A DNA stretch of 64,000 nt from NCBI RefSeq assembly GCF_000176035.2, contig NC_015675.1, positions 1,364,001 through 1,428,000 on the forward strand, in the 5' to 3' direction. The notes beneath the pieces were generated by a model. That model saw only the letters and a list, made by a program, of their open reading frames with translations. It did no database searches and had not been told where the DNA came from. The translations under genes were made by a program, and so were the position numbers. Source of the stretch: Mesorhizobium opportunistum WSM2075. GTDB taxonomy: Bacteria > Pseudomonadota > Alphaproteobacteria > Rhizobiales > Rhizobiaceae. Shown piece after piece: positions 1-5,084 of the stretch. Position 1 is the stretch's first letter. Each line of letters begins with the position of its first letter.

Positions 1-2
1 CG

Positions 3-1151
3 CTTGGTGCCCAGATCTCGCAAATCATCACCGCCGATCTCAAGCGCTCCGGCTTGTTCGCGCCGATCGACAAGAGTGCCTTCATCGAGAAGATCTCGAA
101 CCCGGATGCCGCACCCCGCTTCGACGACTGGAAGGTGATCAACGCGCAGGCGCTGGTCACCGGCAGCGTCAGCAAGGAGGCCGATGGGCGCATCCGCGCT
201 CAGTACCGGTTGTGGGATACTTTTGCCGGCCAGCAGATGTCGGGCGAGCAGTTCTTCGCCAACGACGCCAACCAGCGTCGTGTCGCCCACATCATTGCCG
301 ACGCCATCTACGAGCGGCTGACCGGCGAGAAGGGCTATTTCGACACGCGCGTCGTCTTCATCGACGAGTCCGGCGCCAAGAACGCGCGCAAGAAGCGCCT
401 TGCCATCATGGACCAGGACGGCGCCAACGTCCGTTACCTCTCGGACGGCCGGTCGATCGTGCTGACGCCGCGCTTCTCGCCGAACCGGCAAGAGATCACC
501 TACATGTCCTATGAAAGCGGCCAGCCGCGGGTCTATCTCCTGCAGATCGAGACCGGGCAGCGCGAACTCGTCGGCAACTTCCCCGGCATGACGTTCGCGC
601 CGCGCTTCTCGCCCGACGGCCAGAAGGTGATCATGAGCCTGCTGCGCGACGACGGCAATTCCAACATCTTCGCCATGGATCTGCGCAGCCGCTCGACGAC
701 GCGGCTGACCAACTCGACCGCCATCGACACCTCGCCTTCCTATTCGCCGGACGGCAGCAAGGTCGTGTTCACATCCGACCGCGGCGGCCGCGCGCAGATC
801 TACGTGATGGGCGCGGACGGCTCCGGCCAGACCCGCATCTCCTTCGGCGACGGCGTCTATTCGACGCCGGTGTGGTCGCCGCGCGGTGACCTCATCGCCT
901 TCACCAAGCAGACCGGCGGCGAATTCCAGATCGGCGTCATGAAGACCGACGGTTCGGGCGAGCGCATCCTGTCGTCGGGCTTCCAGCAGGAAGGGCCGAC
1001 TTGGGCGCCGAACGGCCGCGTCCTGATGTTCTTCCGCGACGCCAATGGCGGTCCGAAACTCATTTCGGTCGATCTCACCGGCCGCAACGAGCAGCCGATC
1101 CCGACTTCGAATTTTGCGTCCGATCCGGCCTGGTCGCCGCTGCTTGAGTAG
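3..1151 (+). CDS. tolB: Tol-Pal system beta-propeller protein TolB (5' end outside window)
   Basis: The frame is open from the first bases of the window ([19 protein letters not shown]...), so the true start lies upstream and 382 C-terminal residues are visible. The fragment has the end of the N-terminal TolB domain (to about residue 125), then repeated propeller blades with the SPDG-x-K-V-x-F/M signature (for example [11 protein letters not shown] and [16 protein letters not shown]). TolB is periplasmic and links Pal to the TolQRA inner-membrane motor for outer-membrane constriction during division. It is followed by pal and cpoB, the usual order, but a repeat-bracketed cassette starts directly after its stop codon. 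Confidence 0.96.
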
Positions 1152-1153
1152 GG

Positions 1154-1201
1154 GAATTGAAGAACCGAGGAATTGAAGAACTGAGGAATTGAAGAACTGG
1201 G
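1154..1201 (+). repeat. 16-bp tandem repeat array, upstream arm of four-helix-bundle cassette
   Basis: Three consecutive copies of GAATTGAAGAACYGRG (1154-1169, 1170-1185, 1186-1201) begin two bases after the tolB stop, with a decayed fourth copy running into the next gene. The reverse complement of the same unit recurs at 1602-1633 beyond that gene, so the two arrays form an inverted pair. Confidence 0.9.
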
Positions 1202-1203
1202 GA

Positions 1204-1594
1204 ATGGAGAAGCAGGGAGGCTACGTTGGGCGCGCCAAGGACCTCGAGGTCTACAAGCGGGCCTATGCTGTTTCTCTCGAGATTCACAAAGCCACCCTTG
1301 CCTTTCCAAAGATCGAGCAATATGCGCTCGCCGATCAATTGCGCCGATCAATTGCGCCGTTCGAGCAAGGCGATCTGCGCCAATCTGGCTGAGGGGTTTG
1401 CCAAACAACCTCACTCCAAAGCTGAATTCGCGCGGTTCATTTCAATGGCGATGGGATCATGCAGCGAGGTGGAGACGTGGATTTCCTACGCATCCGACCT
1501 TGAGTACATCTCGAAGACACAACTCGACAGGTGGCAGCAGTTCTATAGCCATATCTACGGGATGCTGGTGAATCTCAGAGCAGCGCTGAAGTGA
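1204..1594 (+). pseudogene. four-helix-bundle protein (S23 / 23S rRNA intervening-sequence family), frameshifted
   Basis: Frame 1 from ATG 1204 reads MEKQGGYVGRAKDLEVYKRAYAVSLEIHK... up to ADQLRR, then goes off-family and stops at 1392. A second frame picks up with SSKAICANLAEGFAKQ and runs to 1594. RAKDLEVYKRAY, LADQLRR and ANLAEGF are hallmarks of the S23-like four-helix-bundle family, which also contains the retroelement accessory protein Avd. The break is a 13-bp tandem duplication at 1333-1345/1346-1358. Removing one copy restores a continuous frame of roughly 125 codons. The start codon lies just after the upstream repeat array, whose tail supplies a GGGGA-like ribosome-binding site. 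Function is unknown for most members. Confidence 0.85.
1333..1358 (+). repeat. 13-bp tandem duplication causing frameshift
   Basis: GATCAATTGCGCC occurs twice in direct succession (1333-1345 and 1346-1358). Thirteen is not a multiple of three, so the second copy shifts the four-helix-bundle gene out of frame. Deleting either copy gives GCC GAT CAA TTG CGC CGT TCG AGC AAG, read as ADQLRRSSK, as expected for the family. Confidence 0.93.
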
Positions 1595-1601
1595 CCTCTT
1601 T

Positions 1602-1633
1602 CTCCAACTCTTCAATTCTCCAGTTCTTCAATT
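1602..1633 (-). repeat. 16-bp repeat array, inverted downstream arm of cassette
   Basis: Two copies of CTCCARYTCTTCAATT (1602-1617, 1618-1633), followed by CCCC. Each is the reverse complement of the unit at 1154-1201. The array begins seven bases past the second-frame stop of the four-helix-bundle gene. Confidence 0.9.
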
Positions 1634-1839
1634 CCCCTTTTTCCACGCCTTCGTCGCGTTTTGGCCGTATTTCCGCCTAGGGTCCGCGCCAATTGTGACC
1701 CCGGGGATGACAGCTGCGGACGGGTAGCTAAACCTAATATTAACCGTGTTTCTTGAATGCCGGTTAACCCAAACGTGGTTACTGGGTGATCAACGAAATC
1801 ACTCGAATACGATCACTCGAAATACGAAGGAGAGGCGGC

Positions 1840-2346
1840 ATGGGCCGTATCGCAGCACTTACCAGAAACCCGGTCATGATCGCGCTGGTGGCGATGCTCG
1901 CCATCGCCGGTTGCGCCTCGAAGAAGACGCCGAACAGCGCCGCTGATCTCGGCCTCAACGGCGCGGGTGCCGCAACGCCCGGCTCGGCGCAGGACTTCAC
2001 CGTCAACATCGGCGACCGCATCTTCTTCGACACGGACTCGTCCTCGATCCGCGCCGATGCGCAGACGACGCTCGCCCGGCAGGCGCAGTGGCTGAACCAG
2101 TACAAGCAGTATGCCATCGTCGTCGAAGGCCATGCCGACGAACGCGGCACGCGCGAATACAATCTGGCACTCGGCGCCCGCCGCGCCGCCGCCGCCCGCG
2201 ACTTCCTCGTTTCCAAGGGTGTCGCTTCCAGCCGGCTGAAGACGATTTCCTACGGCAAGGAACGCCCTGTCGCGGTGTGCGACGACATCTCGTGCTGGTC
2301 GCAGAACCGCCGTGCGGTCACCACGCTCAGCGGCGCCGGTTCCTGA
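1840..2346 (+). CDS. pal: peptidoglycan-associated lipoprotein Pal
   Basis: 168 residues from ATG 1840. This start was preferred because of the GAAGGAGAGG site just upstream and because it gives a normal lipoprotein signal peptide with lipobox AIAGC (Cys25). The OmpA-like C-terminal domain covers about residues 50-160 and includes VNIGDRIFFDTDSS, VEGHADERGTREYN (peptidoglycan-contacting Asp and Arg) and the closing NRRAV segment. Pal is anchored in the outer membrane, binds peptidoglycan and exchanges with TolB. The 207-bp segment between the cassette and pal contains TTAACCG and TTAACCC motifs, so pal may have its own promoter. Confidence 0.96.
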   Translation: MGRIAALTRNPVMIALVAMLAIAGCASKKTPNSAADLGLNGAGAATPGSAQDFTVNIGDRIFFDTDSSSIRADAQTTLARQAQWLNQYKQYAIVVEGHADERGTREYNLALGARRAAAARDFLVSKGVASSRLKTISYGKERPVAVCDDISCWSQNRRAVTTLSGAGS

Positions 2347-2419
2347 TCGGCGCAGAGCCGTCCAGGCTGCGCCAGGAGAAGGCGCGGCGGTAGCGGCAGA
2401 AATGCAACACAGCTTTGCG

Positions 2420-2446
2420 AAAGGCGGCCCCTGCGGCCGCCTTTTT
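2420..2446 (+). terminator. Rho-independent terminator after pal
   Basis: Ten-base-pair GC-rich stem AAAGGCGGCC (2420-2429) pairing with GGCCGCCTTT (2435-2444), loop of five, with a T run reaching 2446. It lies between pal and cpoB, so cpoB probably has an independent promoter. Confidence 0.85.
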
Positions 2447-2569
2447 CATATCCGGCTGCCCGAAACAAAATTTGGCCGAAGTCTCGCGCCCTGCTATGAG
2501 CCGAGGGCGCTTGGCTGGTCTCATGGTGATTGGAAGGCGCGGACAACTAACGACACACGCGAGAGGCAC

Positions 2570-3676
2570 ATGCATTTGAGATCGGTTCTGAGCGGCACGC
2601 TTGCGCTGCTGCTCCTATCAGGCGTCACAGCCTCGGCTAGCGGCTTGGGGGCTGGTGGCCCGGGGCAATCAACCGGCAGCGGCTTTTCCTTCCACCTGCC
2701 GTCGATCGAGTTGCCCAGCCTGTTCGGCGACAAGAAGAAACCGGATCAGGTCCAGCTTGCGCAGCAGTCGAATGGCGCCGGCGCAACCGCGCTCGAGGAT
2801 CAGCTGCGGCAGATGAACGGCAAGATCGAGGAACTCAATTTCCAGATCCTGCAGATGCAGGAACAGATCCGCAAGCAGCAGGAAGACAACGAGTTCCGCT
2901 TCCAGCAGCTCGAGGGCGGGGCGCAAGGCGGACAAGCACCGGCACAGAAGAAGTCGGATGCCGGCACCAACAACGACGTGGCCTCGGCCCCCGCGACCCA
3001 GGCGCCGGCCGATGCCGGCGCCGCGGCCGGCAGCGATCAGTCCGCCGGCGGCAAGACGGTCGAGGACGTCATCGTCGAATCGCCCGATGGCGACCCGGGC
3101 AAGGTGATCCCTGGAAAGGGAGCGCCGGAAAAGACCTTTGGTTCCATCACCGTCGACAAGAACGGCAATGTGATCGACGCCGGCGGCAACACCCAGGCGA
3201 CCGCGCCGGCACAGGATGCCGCTCCGGCCACCGGTGCGCCGGCCAAGGCGGGCAAGTCCGACGGCACTGTGGTCGCGGCGCTGCCCGCCACCAACGATCC
3301 GGAGGAGCTTTACCGCAATTCCTATCAGTTCATCCTGTCGGGCGACTACGGCACGGCCGAGCAGGGGTTCCGCGATCATATCTCGCGCTTCCCCAGGGAT
3401 GCCAAGACGGCCGACGCGCATTACTGGCTGGGCGAGTCGCTGCTGGGCCAGCAGAAATTCCGCGACGCGGCCGAGGTTTTCCTCGCTGCCAGCAAGGACT
3501 ATCCCAAGGCCAAGAAGGCGCCGGACATGCTCTTGAAGCTCGGCGTGTCGCTGGTCGGCCTCAAGCAGCATGACGTCGCCTGCGCTACTTTCGGCGAGAT
3601 CGGCAAGCGTTATCCCGACATTTCCAGCGCCCTCAAGGAACGCGTCAAGCAGGAGAAGGCACTGGCTGCGTGCTGA
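2570..3676 (+). CDS. cpoB: cell division coordinator CpoB (YbgF), tol-pal system TPR protein
   Basis: 368 residues from ATG 2570. Upstream in-frame codons run through the terminator and are rejected as a start. There is a signal peptide (LSGTLALLLLSGVTASA), a coiled-coil trimerisation segment at about residues 75-120 (EDQLRQMNGKIEELNFQI), a long Ala/Pro/Gly-rich linker, and a C-terminal TPR domain starting at DPEELYRNSYQFI with DAHYWLGESLLGQQKFRDAAE. In E. coli CpoB acts in the periplasm with TolA and PBP1B to coordinate septal peptidoglycan synthesis with outer-membrane constriction. Gene order tolB-pal-cpoB supports the assignment. The 150-residue linker is longer than in E. coli, as is common in alphaproteobacteria. 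Confidence 0.93.
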   Translation: MHLRSVLSGTLALLLLSGVTASASGLGAGGPGQSTGSGFSFHLPSIELPSLFGDKKKPDQVQLAQQSNGAGATALEDQLRQMNGKIEELNFQILQMQEQIRKQQEDNEFRFQQLEGGAQGGQAPAQKKSDAGTNNDVASAPATQAPADAGAAAGSDQSAGGKTVEDVIVESPDGDPGKVIPGKGAPEKTFGSITVDKNGNVIDAGGNTQATAPAQDAAPATGAPAKAGKSDGTVVAALPATNDPEELYRNSYQFILSGDYGTAEQGFRDHISRFPRDAKTADAHYWLGESLLGQQKFRDAAEVFLAASKDYPKAKKAPDMLLKLGVSLVGLKQHDVACATFGEIGKRYPDISSALKERVKQEKALAAC

Positions 3677-3710
3677 TTTTTCGTCTGCATGTCCCAGCCC
3701 AAGAACCGGG

Positions 3711-5084
3711 ATGTTGATGCTCGATTCCGGGCCTGATCTTTCGACCAGACTTTTTTCGCATATCGATTTCACCAACGGCGCTGTTGCGGCCGTATCCGGC
3801 GGCAGCGATTCGACCGCCCTGCTTCTGCTTCTCAAACATCATCTCGATCGATCCGCGCCGTCCGCCAAGCTGTTGGCGGTGACCATCGACCATGGCCTGC
3901 GGCAGGACTCGGCGGCGGAGGCGCAAGCCGTGGCGAAGCTGTGCGCGGAGCGGGGCATCGCCCACCGCACCATGATCTGGTCCGGGCGCAAGCCTTCGAC
4001 CGGTCTGCCGGCGGCGGCACGGGAGGCGCGCTACCGGTTGCTGGCAAGCGCTGCCCGCGCGGAAGGCATCGGCCTGATCGTGACCGGCCACACCGCCGAC
4101 GACCAGGCCGAGACGGTGCTGATGCGCCACGCCCGCGACGGGAGCCTGGGCCATGTACAGGGTCGGGGGCTGGCCGGCATGGCGCCAGCCACGCTCTACG
4201 ACTGGCGCGAATGGATCGTGCGGCCGCTGCTGGGCACGCGGCGCGCGGCACTGCGCGATTTCCTGCAAAGCAAACATGTCGGCTGGGCAGAGGATCCGAC
4301 CAACAGCGACGAGAGCTTCGAGCGACCGCGCGTGAGAGCGGCACTTGCCGGCGACAATGTCCGCCGCATGGACGAGGCTTTGGTCCTGGCCAGCCAGGCT
4401 GCCATCGAGCGCGGACAGCTTGGTCTTGATGCCGCCGACCTGATCCGGCGTTTTGCCAGCCAGCCAGCCACGGGCCTTGTGCGCCTCGACCCGCAACTGC
4501 GCTCGACCGGCGACGAGCGCGCGGCCATCTATGCGTTGCGTATCCTGCTGGCGACCGTCGGAGGGCTTGCCTTCCTGCCGGACCAGGCCCGCGGCGAGGT
4601 GCTGTTCGGCCGGCTGAAGGCCGGATTTCTTTGTGCCACATTGTCGCGGACGGTGGTCGATTTCCGGCGTGCCGGTATCTTCCTGCGCCGCGAGGCACGT
4701 GGCTTGCCGCCCGCCGCCGCGGCCATCGACAACACCATCTGGGATGGCCGCCGCCACATCACATTGAACGACAGCTCCGCCGGATTGTTGATCGCGCCGC
4801 TGGGTGCGGCAGCAGCGAAGCGGCTGCCGATCGACGCGGGAGAAACCCCGGCAAGCCTGATGCGCGCTGCGTTGGCTGCGGAACCGACATCGCGGCAAGC
4901 CTTTGAAAACCCTGATGTGCCACAGGGCGAACCGGCATCGCCAGGGTTCGACGCGCGGCCGGTCGTTGCGCCTTTTGCCCGCTTCCTGCCATCCTTCGAC
5001 CTGGCGCCGGCGCGGGCCATCGCCGGCCTGATTGGCGCGCCATCGCTGCCCGCCTTGCCTTTCGGCGGCCACAGTGCCGGTTGA
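3711..5084 (+). CDS. tilS: tRNA(Ile)-lysidine synthase TilS
   Basis: 457 residues from ATG 3711; ATG 3717 is an alternative. The N-type PP-loop SGGSDST (residues 29-35) binds ATP, followed by VTIDHGLRQDS and the TGHTADDQAETVLMR segment characteristic of TilS. The enzyme adds lysine to C34 of the minor tRNA-Ile (CAU anticodon), changing its codon from AUG to AUA and its charging from Met to Ile. The tilS-ftsH pair directly after tol-pal-cpoB is the standard alphaproteobacterial order. The C-terminal part is poorly conserved, as usual. Confidence 0.93.
   Translation: MLMLDSGPDLSTRLFSHIDFTNGAVAAVSGGSDSTALLLLLKHHLDRSAPSAKLLAVTIDHGLRQDSAAEAQAVAKLCAERGIAHRTMIWSGRKPSTGLPAAAREARYRLLASAARAEGIGLIVTGHTADDQAETVLMRHARDGSLGHVQGRGLAGMAPATLYDWREWIVRPLLGTRRAALRDFLQSKHVGWAEDPTNSDESFERPRVRAALAGDNVRRMDEALVLASQAAIERGQLGLDAADLIRRFASQPATGLVRLDPQLRSTGDERAAIYALRILLATVGGLAFLPDQARGEVLFGRLKAGFLCATLSRTVVDFRRAGIFLRREARGLPPAAAAIDNTIWDGRRHITLNDSSAGLLIAPLGAAAAKRLPIDAGETPASLMRAALAAEPTSRQAFENPDVPQGEPASPGFDARPVVAPFARFLPSFDLAPARAIAGLIGAPSLPALPFGGHSAG

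Follow-up and report, generated by a model that had tools for sequence, protein, structure and literature searches.

REP sequences, with their RAYT transposase, are a described case of one gene framed by inverted repeats that also has gene-less intergenic copies. An S23 open reading frame (ORF) lies in the intervening sequence (IVS) of the Coxiella 23S rRNA; the passages of Warrier on this element place tandem GACAGAT heptamers before the frame, in a number that varies between strains (PMC4990558). The same passages describe complementary IVS ends that form a 28-bp stem and RNase III as the enzyme that cuts the IVS out (PMC4990558). As portrayed in the main text of Rehm 2015, the heptamers GGGAATC in Xanthomonas and GGGGA(C/T)T in Nostoc 7120 occur near stop codons on the sense strand, with 70 and 75 convergent inverted pairs in two Xanthomonas genomes and few in Nostoc (PMC4692102). 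The terms 'helix bundle' and 'S23' are absent from that main text, in which the role of the heptamers is still to be elucidated (PMC4692102). We found no paper in the open-licence literature that connects inverted heptamer arrays with S23 genes located outside rRNA. Structures of S23 proteins have been solved since 2006 (2gsc), and the proteins have no known function.

The S23 copy between tolB and pal

The window, a stretch of 64,000 nucleotides from Mesorhizobium opportunistum WSM2075, contains an S23-family gene enclosed by inverted repeat arrays. Its flanks are tolB and pal rather than the two sides of a 23S rRNA gene. The features are as follows.

3..1151, plus strand: tolB, C-terminal part, running off the window start (TIGR02800, 467.9 bits; stop codon 1149-1151)
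1154..1201, plus strand: 5' arm, three 16-bp units equal to six GAAYTGRR octamers, with a degenerate continuation to about 1208
1204..1594, plus strand: S23-family gene, frameshifted, probably a relic (23S rRNA IVS protein, four-helix bundle; PF05635 in two frames; start codon 1204, stop 1592-1594)
1329..1354, plus strand: perfect 13-bp tandem duplication, where the reading frame is lost (repeat and frame inspection)
1600..1634, minus strand: 3' arm, two inverted, diverged units
1634..1642, plus strand: CCCC and T-run, where the filled allele joins sequence in common with the terminator of empty alleles (70-site comparison, by eye)
1840..2346, plus strand: pal (TIGR02802, 142.7 bits)

An earlier note on this DNA had described arrays of a 16-bp repeat beside the tolB stop codon and, inverted, 3' of an S23-like gene, and both arrays are present. 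Three exact units (1154-1169, 1170-1185, and 1186-1201) open 2 bp 3' of the tolB stop, and two inverted units follow the gene with 3 mismatches (1603-1618) and 1 mismatch (1619-1634). The tandem units are real, but the basic unit is 8 bp (GAAYTGRR), and 16 bp corresponds to two octamer variants. When up to 3 mismatches are allowed, the 16-bp unit has these 5 matches and no further one within the 64-kb window, compared with a shuffle mean of 1.15; 1 of 100 shuffles also gave 5. This lax count alone is not decisive, and three of the units are exact and in tandem. The arms align over 39 nt with 82% complementarity (1150-1188 with 1600-1638), and their best core spans 24 nt at 92%. The 3' arm (1600-1634) is followed, in this order, by CCCC, a T-run, and the sequence upstream of pal. 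Window positions 1-4000 have no Rfam match. GAAYTGRR arrays without a gene occur at three more places in the WSM2075 genome.

The S23 gene of the window is broken. PF05635 is split across two frames at the 13-bp tandem duplication (1329-1354), and the second piece scores 76 bits. This frameshift, which the earlier note missed, rests on one assembly and may have its source in a sequencing error. As part of the explanation developed below, we hold with moderate confidence that the window copy is a decaying S23 element and its gene a relic. The assignment to the S23 family stands: an intact orthologue (L046) scores 110.1 bits with PF05635 (cut-off 33.8) and 106.1 bits with TIGR02436 (cut-off 24). 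PF05635 is the only match in a Pfam search of this protein, and the search found no nuclease domain. Its model consists of four helices (pLDDT 93), and in sequence and fold S23 is like 2gsc and 2rld, with Avd more distant.

The S23 fold nevertheless resembles Avd (4dwl, TM 0.72; also the DGR complex 8ub7), and a retro-mechanism related to diversity-generating retroelements (DGRs), with S23 replacing Avd, could conceivably rewrite the arms. We consider this very improbable, given that RVT_1 (PF00078) has no match in the genome of WSM2075, the sole genome searched, and that Avd profiles fall below cut-off in other S23 proteins, at 21.5 of 40 bits for PF22296 (L009) and 20.7 of 80 bits for DivGenRetAVD (L020), with no Avd match listed for L046. 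The retroelement link drawn in the earlier note is not supported by these searches, and nothing suggestive of the RNA-guided spread that it raised was found.

At tolB-pal, intact S23 genes (n = 22) have a median dN/dS of 0.093 (172 of 231 pairs usable), and the tolB tail has a value of 0.064 (27 loci). The low S23 value indicates that selection maintains the protein while it is present. The gene is thus under purifying selection, yet it is frequently broken or lost.

The tolB-pal site could be read in 70 of 119 genomes of the genus. The S23 unit is present in 34 of these, 31 are empty, and 5 are remnants with arrays and no gene; the empty sites support the proposal that the unit was inserted between tolB and pal. 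The 34 S23 genes divide into 22 intact and 12 broken, a first tally of 26 intact having been lowered by the removal of L045, L061, and L071 (wrong frame) and L106 (foreign ORF). By eye, most empty alleles have a hairpin and T-run terminator directly 3' of tolB. Filled alleles lack the terminator stem, and their right junction falls at the terminator's CCCC and T-run. Filled and empty alleles are interleaved on a tree of the flanks (421 columns; most forks weakly supported), which requires at least 18 changes, 6 of them forced by starred branches, and places filled L067 beside empty L101. Either allele exchange or repeated insertion would yield this pattern. One copy (L110) has an internally deleted S23 gene. 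In L106 (genome G038), about 1.1 kb interrupts the S23 unit and encodes a 400-residue frame that presumably resembles a membrane acyltransferase.

Matched arms and recurrent junctions

The second S23 gene of WSM2075 is framed by inverted arrays of another unit, the 7-bp GTAGGCA, and lies, to judge from protein motifs, between the gene of an acyl-CoA dehydrogenase and that of a dehydrogenase taken to be mmsB. The wider set consisted of 168 S23 loci from genus, phylum, and named records; its sources include the best 80 of 541 confirmed relatives, which are Rhizobiales-heavy, and 30 loci from the 37 genomes that were positive among 200. Arms could be scored at 165 loci (L108 had no tblastn hit, and L043 and L123 had short flanks) by comparing the 5' flank with the reverse complement of the 3' flank, a match being one that beats all 60 dinucleotide shuffles. 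Such a match exists at 145 of the 165 loci. After collapse into clusters of similar genes, 72 of 88 clusters are matched, as opposed to 5 of 270 control ORFs from the same loci, and 16 clusters are without matched arms. In five genomes (Nostoc, Chloroflexus, a planctomycete, an acidobacterial genome, and Latescibacterota), 30 of 36 places were used as loci, with an overlap of up to five with the main set; of the 26 loci that could be tested, 20 have matched arms.

The gene with its inverted arrays is therefore a recurrent unit, as the earlier note had supposed, and is broader than first noted. The repeat unit differs between elements, even inside one genome, and the two arms of one element agree. 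The acidobacterial genome (G314, Terriglobia, behind L181) has 20 PF05635 matches, some of them pieces of one gene, and about eight different repeat units by eye. The presence of S23 within matched arrays of distant bacteria connects an orphan protein family with bacterial repeats that have lacked an explanation. Among the 20 loci whose arms failed to beat the shuffles is L139, presumably between accB and accC to judge from protein motifs. Here a GGGAATC-like unit of the Xanthomonas type flanks a broken S23 gene, and the C-terminal end of the frame is encoded by the array.

The arrays follow simple rules. A clear period is evident in 51 of the 72 representatives and is 7 (30 cases), 14 (7), 8 (11), or 16 (3), with no other value; 37 of the 51 thus have period 7 or 14, and 14 have period 8 or 16, the window copy having period 8. 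In 53 of 72 representatives, the start of the arm coincides with the stop codon of a co-directional ORF upstream (median distance 0), although this count is rough because aligned arms sometimes extend into the upstream gene. Stop codons occur in all three frames within 45 of 72 5' arms, and a co-directional ORF starts within 260 nt 3' of S23 in 62 of 67 cases. The blocks form 59 pairs in the order plus then minus and one neighbouring pair in reversed order, and 29 blocks are unpaired. Nostoc contributes 18 of the unpaired blocks, and the arrays of Nostoc G311 are mostly unpaired (18 unpaired blocks vs 5 pairs in 16 loci).

Some junctions are occupied recurrently. Forty S23 loci of the set lie before nuoD, and their proteins are not one clade (8 changes, 2 forced) but include three lineages in Mesorhizobium, on a tree with weak support at most forks, thinned tolB-pal and acd-mmsB rows, and a single frame of a broken gene to represent L045. 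Within the genus, 30 nuoC-nuoD loci were sampled from 118 genomes with a match. The 29 that were parsed comprise 8 filled junctions, 14 with a 9-bp spacer, and 7 without a spacer, WSM2075 (L326) being one of the last. The nuoC-nuoD unit runs from the nuoC stop itself to just before the nuoD start region. Further S23 junctions, which we assign from protein motifs, are presumably cysD-cysN, gmd-fcl, the position before gltX, and accB-accC. The sites seen filled, empty, or as remnants are consistent with the view of the earlier note that this is a mobile unit. Movement itself was not observed, and no clean target duplication was recognised at nuoC-nuoD, nor at tolB-pal, where the terminator is replaced. 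Plasmid records seldom contain S23 (38 of 72,556), and phages almost never do (1 of 50,697). The plasmid S23 records (H1-H44) are mostly cyanobacterial, with four from Riemerella.

Joint change of the two arms

Independent evolution of the two arms of an element would leave a 5' arm no closer to its own 3' arm than to those found at that site in other genomes. At tolB-pal, the own-arm score is 21.4 vs 19.7 when permuted (31 loci, p = 0.0005), with arms cut by text patterns and three of odd length (L064, L065, and L074) retained. At nuoC-nuoD, the scores are 22.3 and 13.9 (p <= 1e-4) for 40 loci, some of which are the same gene from two collections. A gene-less hairpin at the junction of a LOG-family with a HAD-family gene (LOG/HAD) gives 22.2 vs 15.4 (32 loci, p <= 1e-4), although these hairpins were divided at their best own match, which biases the comparison toward own over other. 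When representatives of different clusters are compared, the score is 26.4 for own pairs and 15.0 for the rest; the own arm takes first place in 22 of 72 and ranks within the top three in 44 of 72.

The LOG/HAD junction was read in 50 of 119 genomes and carries arrays in 32. These represent one hairpin site (L220-L249, L280-L299) with a unit that is GAAYTGRR, GGGCAGTA-like, GGCAGTA, or GTAGTGA depending on the genome, and at none of the loci are the arms of clearly different class. The 5' arm is unclassed by rule in L238 and L246, and 7- and 8-bp variants are mixed in L244, L246, L283, and L284. Loops look homologous across unit classes: in seven pairs drawn from 8 loci cut by hand, five beat all 1000 shuffles and two are equalled by 1 in 1000, with scores of 24 for L235 vs L241 (shuffle maximum 13) and 32 for L241 vs L245 (maximum 12). 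A tree of the flanks, in which most forks are weakly supported, implies at least 10 unit changes among arrays; L225 and L245, which are sisters (SH-aLRT 97), have different units. The LOG/HAD hairpin has thus switched its unit, in both arms, more than once, while the loop stayed homologous. This paired change offers a natural system for studying how a hairpin arm comes to be copied from its partner.

Selection on an RNA stem is another way in which arms might stay matched. In a true RNA-level IVS, the arms would pair in the operon mRNA and RNase III would remove the S23 segment, as is documented for the rRNA IVS in the Coxiella passages (PMC4990558). The arms can indeed pair, and S23 has a sense orientation in operons (the 62 of 67 cases with a co-directional ORF downstream), but mismatches between the arms of the 72 representatives have no G-U bias (125 compatible vs 106 incompatible transitions). 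Compatible and incompatible changes number 26 and 18 at gln-FAD and 31 and 48 at nuoC-nuoD, their balance is reversed at tolB-pal (24 and 49) and acd-mmsB (35 and 101), and the gene-less LOG/HAD hairpins behave alike (64 and 60). We therefore judge an RNA-level IVS to be rather improbable; with no G-U bias, the arms are better explained by copying at the DNA level than by an RNA stem under selection.

Gene-less hairpins and comparison with described systems

The GAAYTGRR pattern is found in 71 and the GGCAGTA pattern in 76 of the 119 genomes of the genus, whereas a backward-read control pattern occurs in 0, and pattern loci were taken from 30 of the 71 and 30 of the 76 positive genomes. Among paired GAAYTGRR loci, 29 of 32 have gene-less loops of 8-68 bp, and the other 3 have loops of 384-386 bp, each with S23. 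The GGCAGTA family (n = 22) has 17 loops of 2-66 bp and three of 373-377 bp with intact S23. Its L366, with a 148-bp loop, is an S23 gene from which the middle was deleted, and S23 loss can thus leave a hairpin that retains only the ends of the gene. No gene other than S23 was present inside the 55 loci with a pair or remnant that were inspected closely. The 800-bp loop of L375, also of the GGCAGTA family, was considered as other cargo and rejected, being really two separate hairpins that flank a membrane-protein-like gene. GAAYTGRR-type arrays also occur in 4 of 20 genus genomes without a PF05635 match vs 67 of 99 with one. These gene-less arrays count against the reading of the earlier note by the criterion that it had set itself.

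Most gene-less GAAYTGRR hairpins (25 of 29) are located between genes called convergent, with arm edges near both stop codons, although this may be an overcount because ORF length, the basis of the gene calls, also led to a convergent label for two of the three S23 units. Since S23 units lie mostly in co-directional runs, these hairpins are not simply deleted S23 units. At L012:2090-2104 and L014:2077-2107, the array overlaps the last codons of a convergent gene, and two unrelated proteins consequently share similar tails (EELKN and VELRN).

These hairpins invite the reading that slippage grows them at gene ends as terminator-like or simple repeats kept by the host, into some of which a host gene, S23, has found its way. 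Pairs without a gene are more numerous than those with S23 (29 vs 3, and 17 vs 3 with an intact gene), arrays occur in S23-negative genomes, array edges fall at stop codons, and the main text of Rehm 2015 reports the same placement with S23 unnamed (PMC4692102). We nonetheless find this reading unlikely in view of the framing of S23 in 72 of 88 clusters vs 5 of 270 neighbours, the lack of any other gene inside the 55 loci inspected closely, and the many different units that S23 elements display across distant bacteria.

The reading that we somewhat favour is an IVS-like S23 element outside rRNA that is inserted at stop codons, recurrently at some junctions, and has arms that evolve in concert. 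Such an element, presumably with the help of S23, would insert at the ends of genes and do so repeatedly at a given junction. One arm might then template the other at the DNA level, by template switching in the hairpin during replication, and thereby keep the arms matched, while slippage might spread new units along each arm. Gene-less hairpins would be partly deletion products and partly self-spreading. Transposition, the role of S23, and the template-switch mechanism are what we infer from the patterns above. Several observations run against this element-based reading: arrays outlive S23, 16 of 88 clusters are unmatched, no transposition event was observed, most Nostoc arrays lack a partner, and S23 is seldom carried by plasmids and hardly ever by phages.

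The comparison with described systems can now be drawn more closely. S23 has the same fold as the Avd of diversity-generating retroelements, but its sequence scores below the Avd cut-offs and WSM2075 has no reverse transcriptase match. The likeness to REP/RAYT consists of one framed gene with gene-less copies; the difference is that the enclosed gene encodes an S23 four-helix bundle, with PF05635 as its only match (L046), rather than a Y1 transposase. The cyanobacterial STRR are another described class of heptamer repeats. With the Coxiella burnetii IVS, as the passages on it portray it, the window copy shares an S23-family ORF within complementary ends and tandem repeats, heptamers there and octamers here (PMC4990558). 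That IVS is located in helix 45 of the 23S rRNA, from which RNase III removes it (PMC4990558), whereas the WSM2075 unit lies between tolB and pal with an array on either side as its arms, and the G-U test reveals no sign of selection on an RNA stem. With the heptamers in the main text of Rehm 2015, the present arrays as a class share period 7, the position at stop codons, and the inverted pairs; unlike them, they frame S23, vary by element, and include octamers without G-runs (PMC4692102). A quadruplex role therefore cannot be general. We tentatively raise the possibility that S23 genes and the 7-8 bp intergenic repeats (cyanobacterial heptamers, Xanthomonas GGGAATC, and the present arrays) represent one class of element that inserts at stop codons, bears the same unit at its two ends, can replace that unit in both arms jointly, and leaves gene-less hairpins, with the rRNA IVS as its rRNA branch and S23 as its nucleic-acid-binding factor. 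The setting that they share raises the testable question of whether S23 acts on its own arms.
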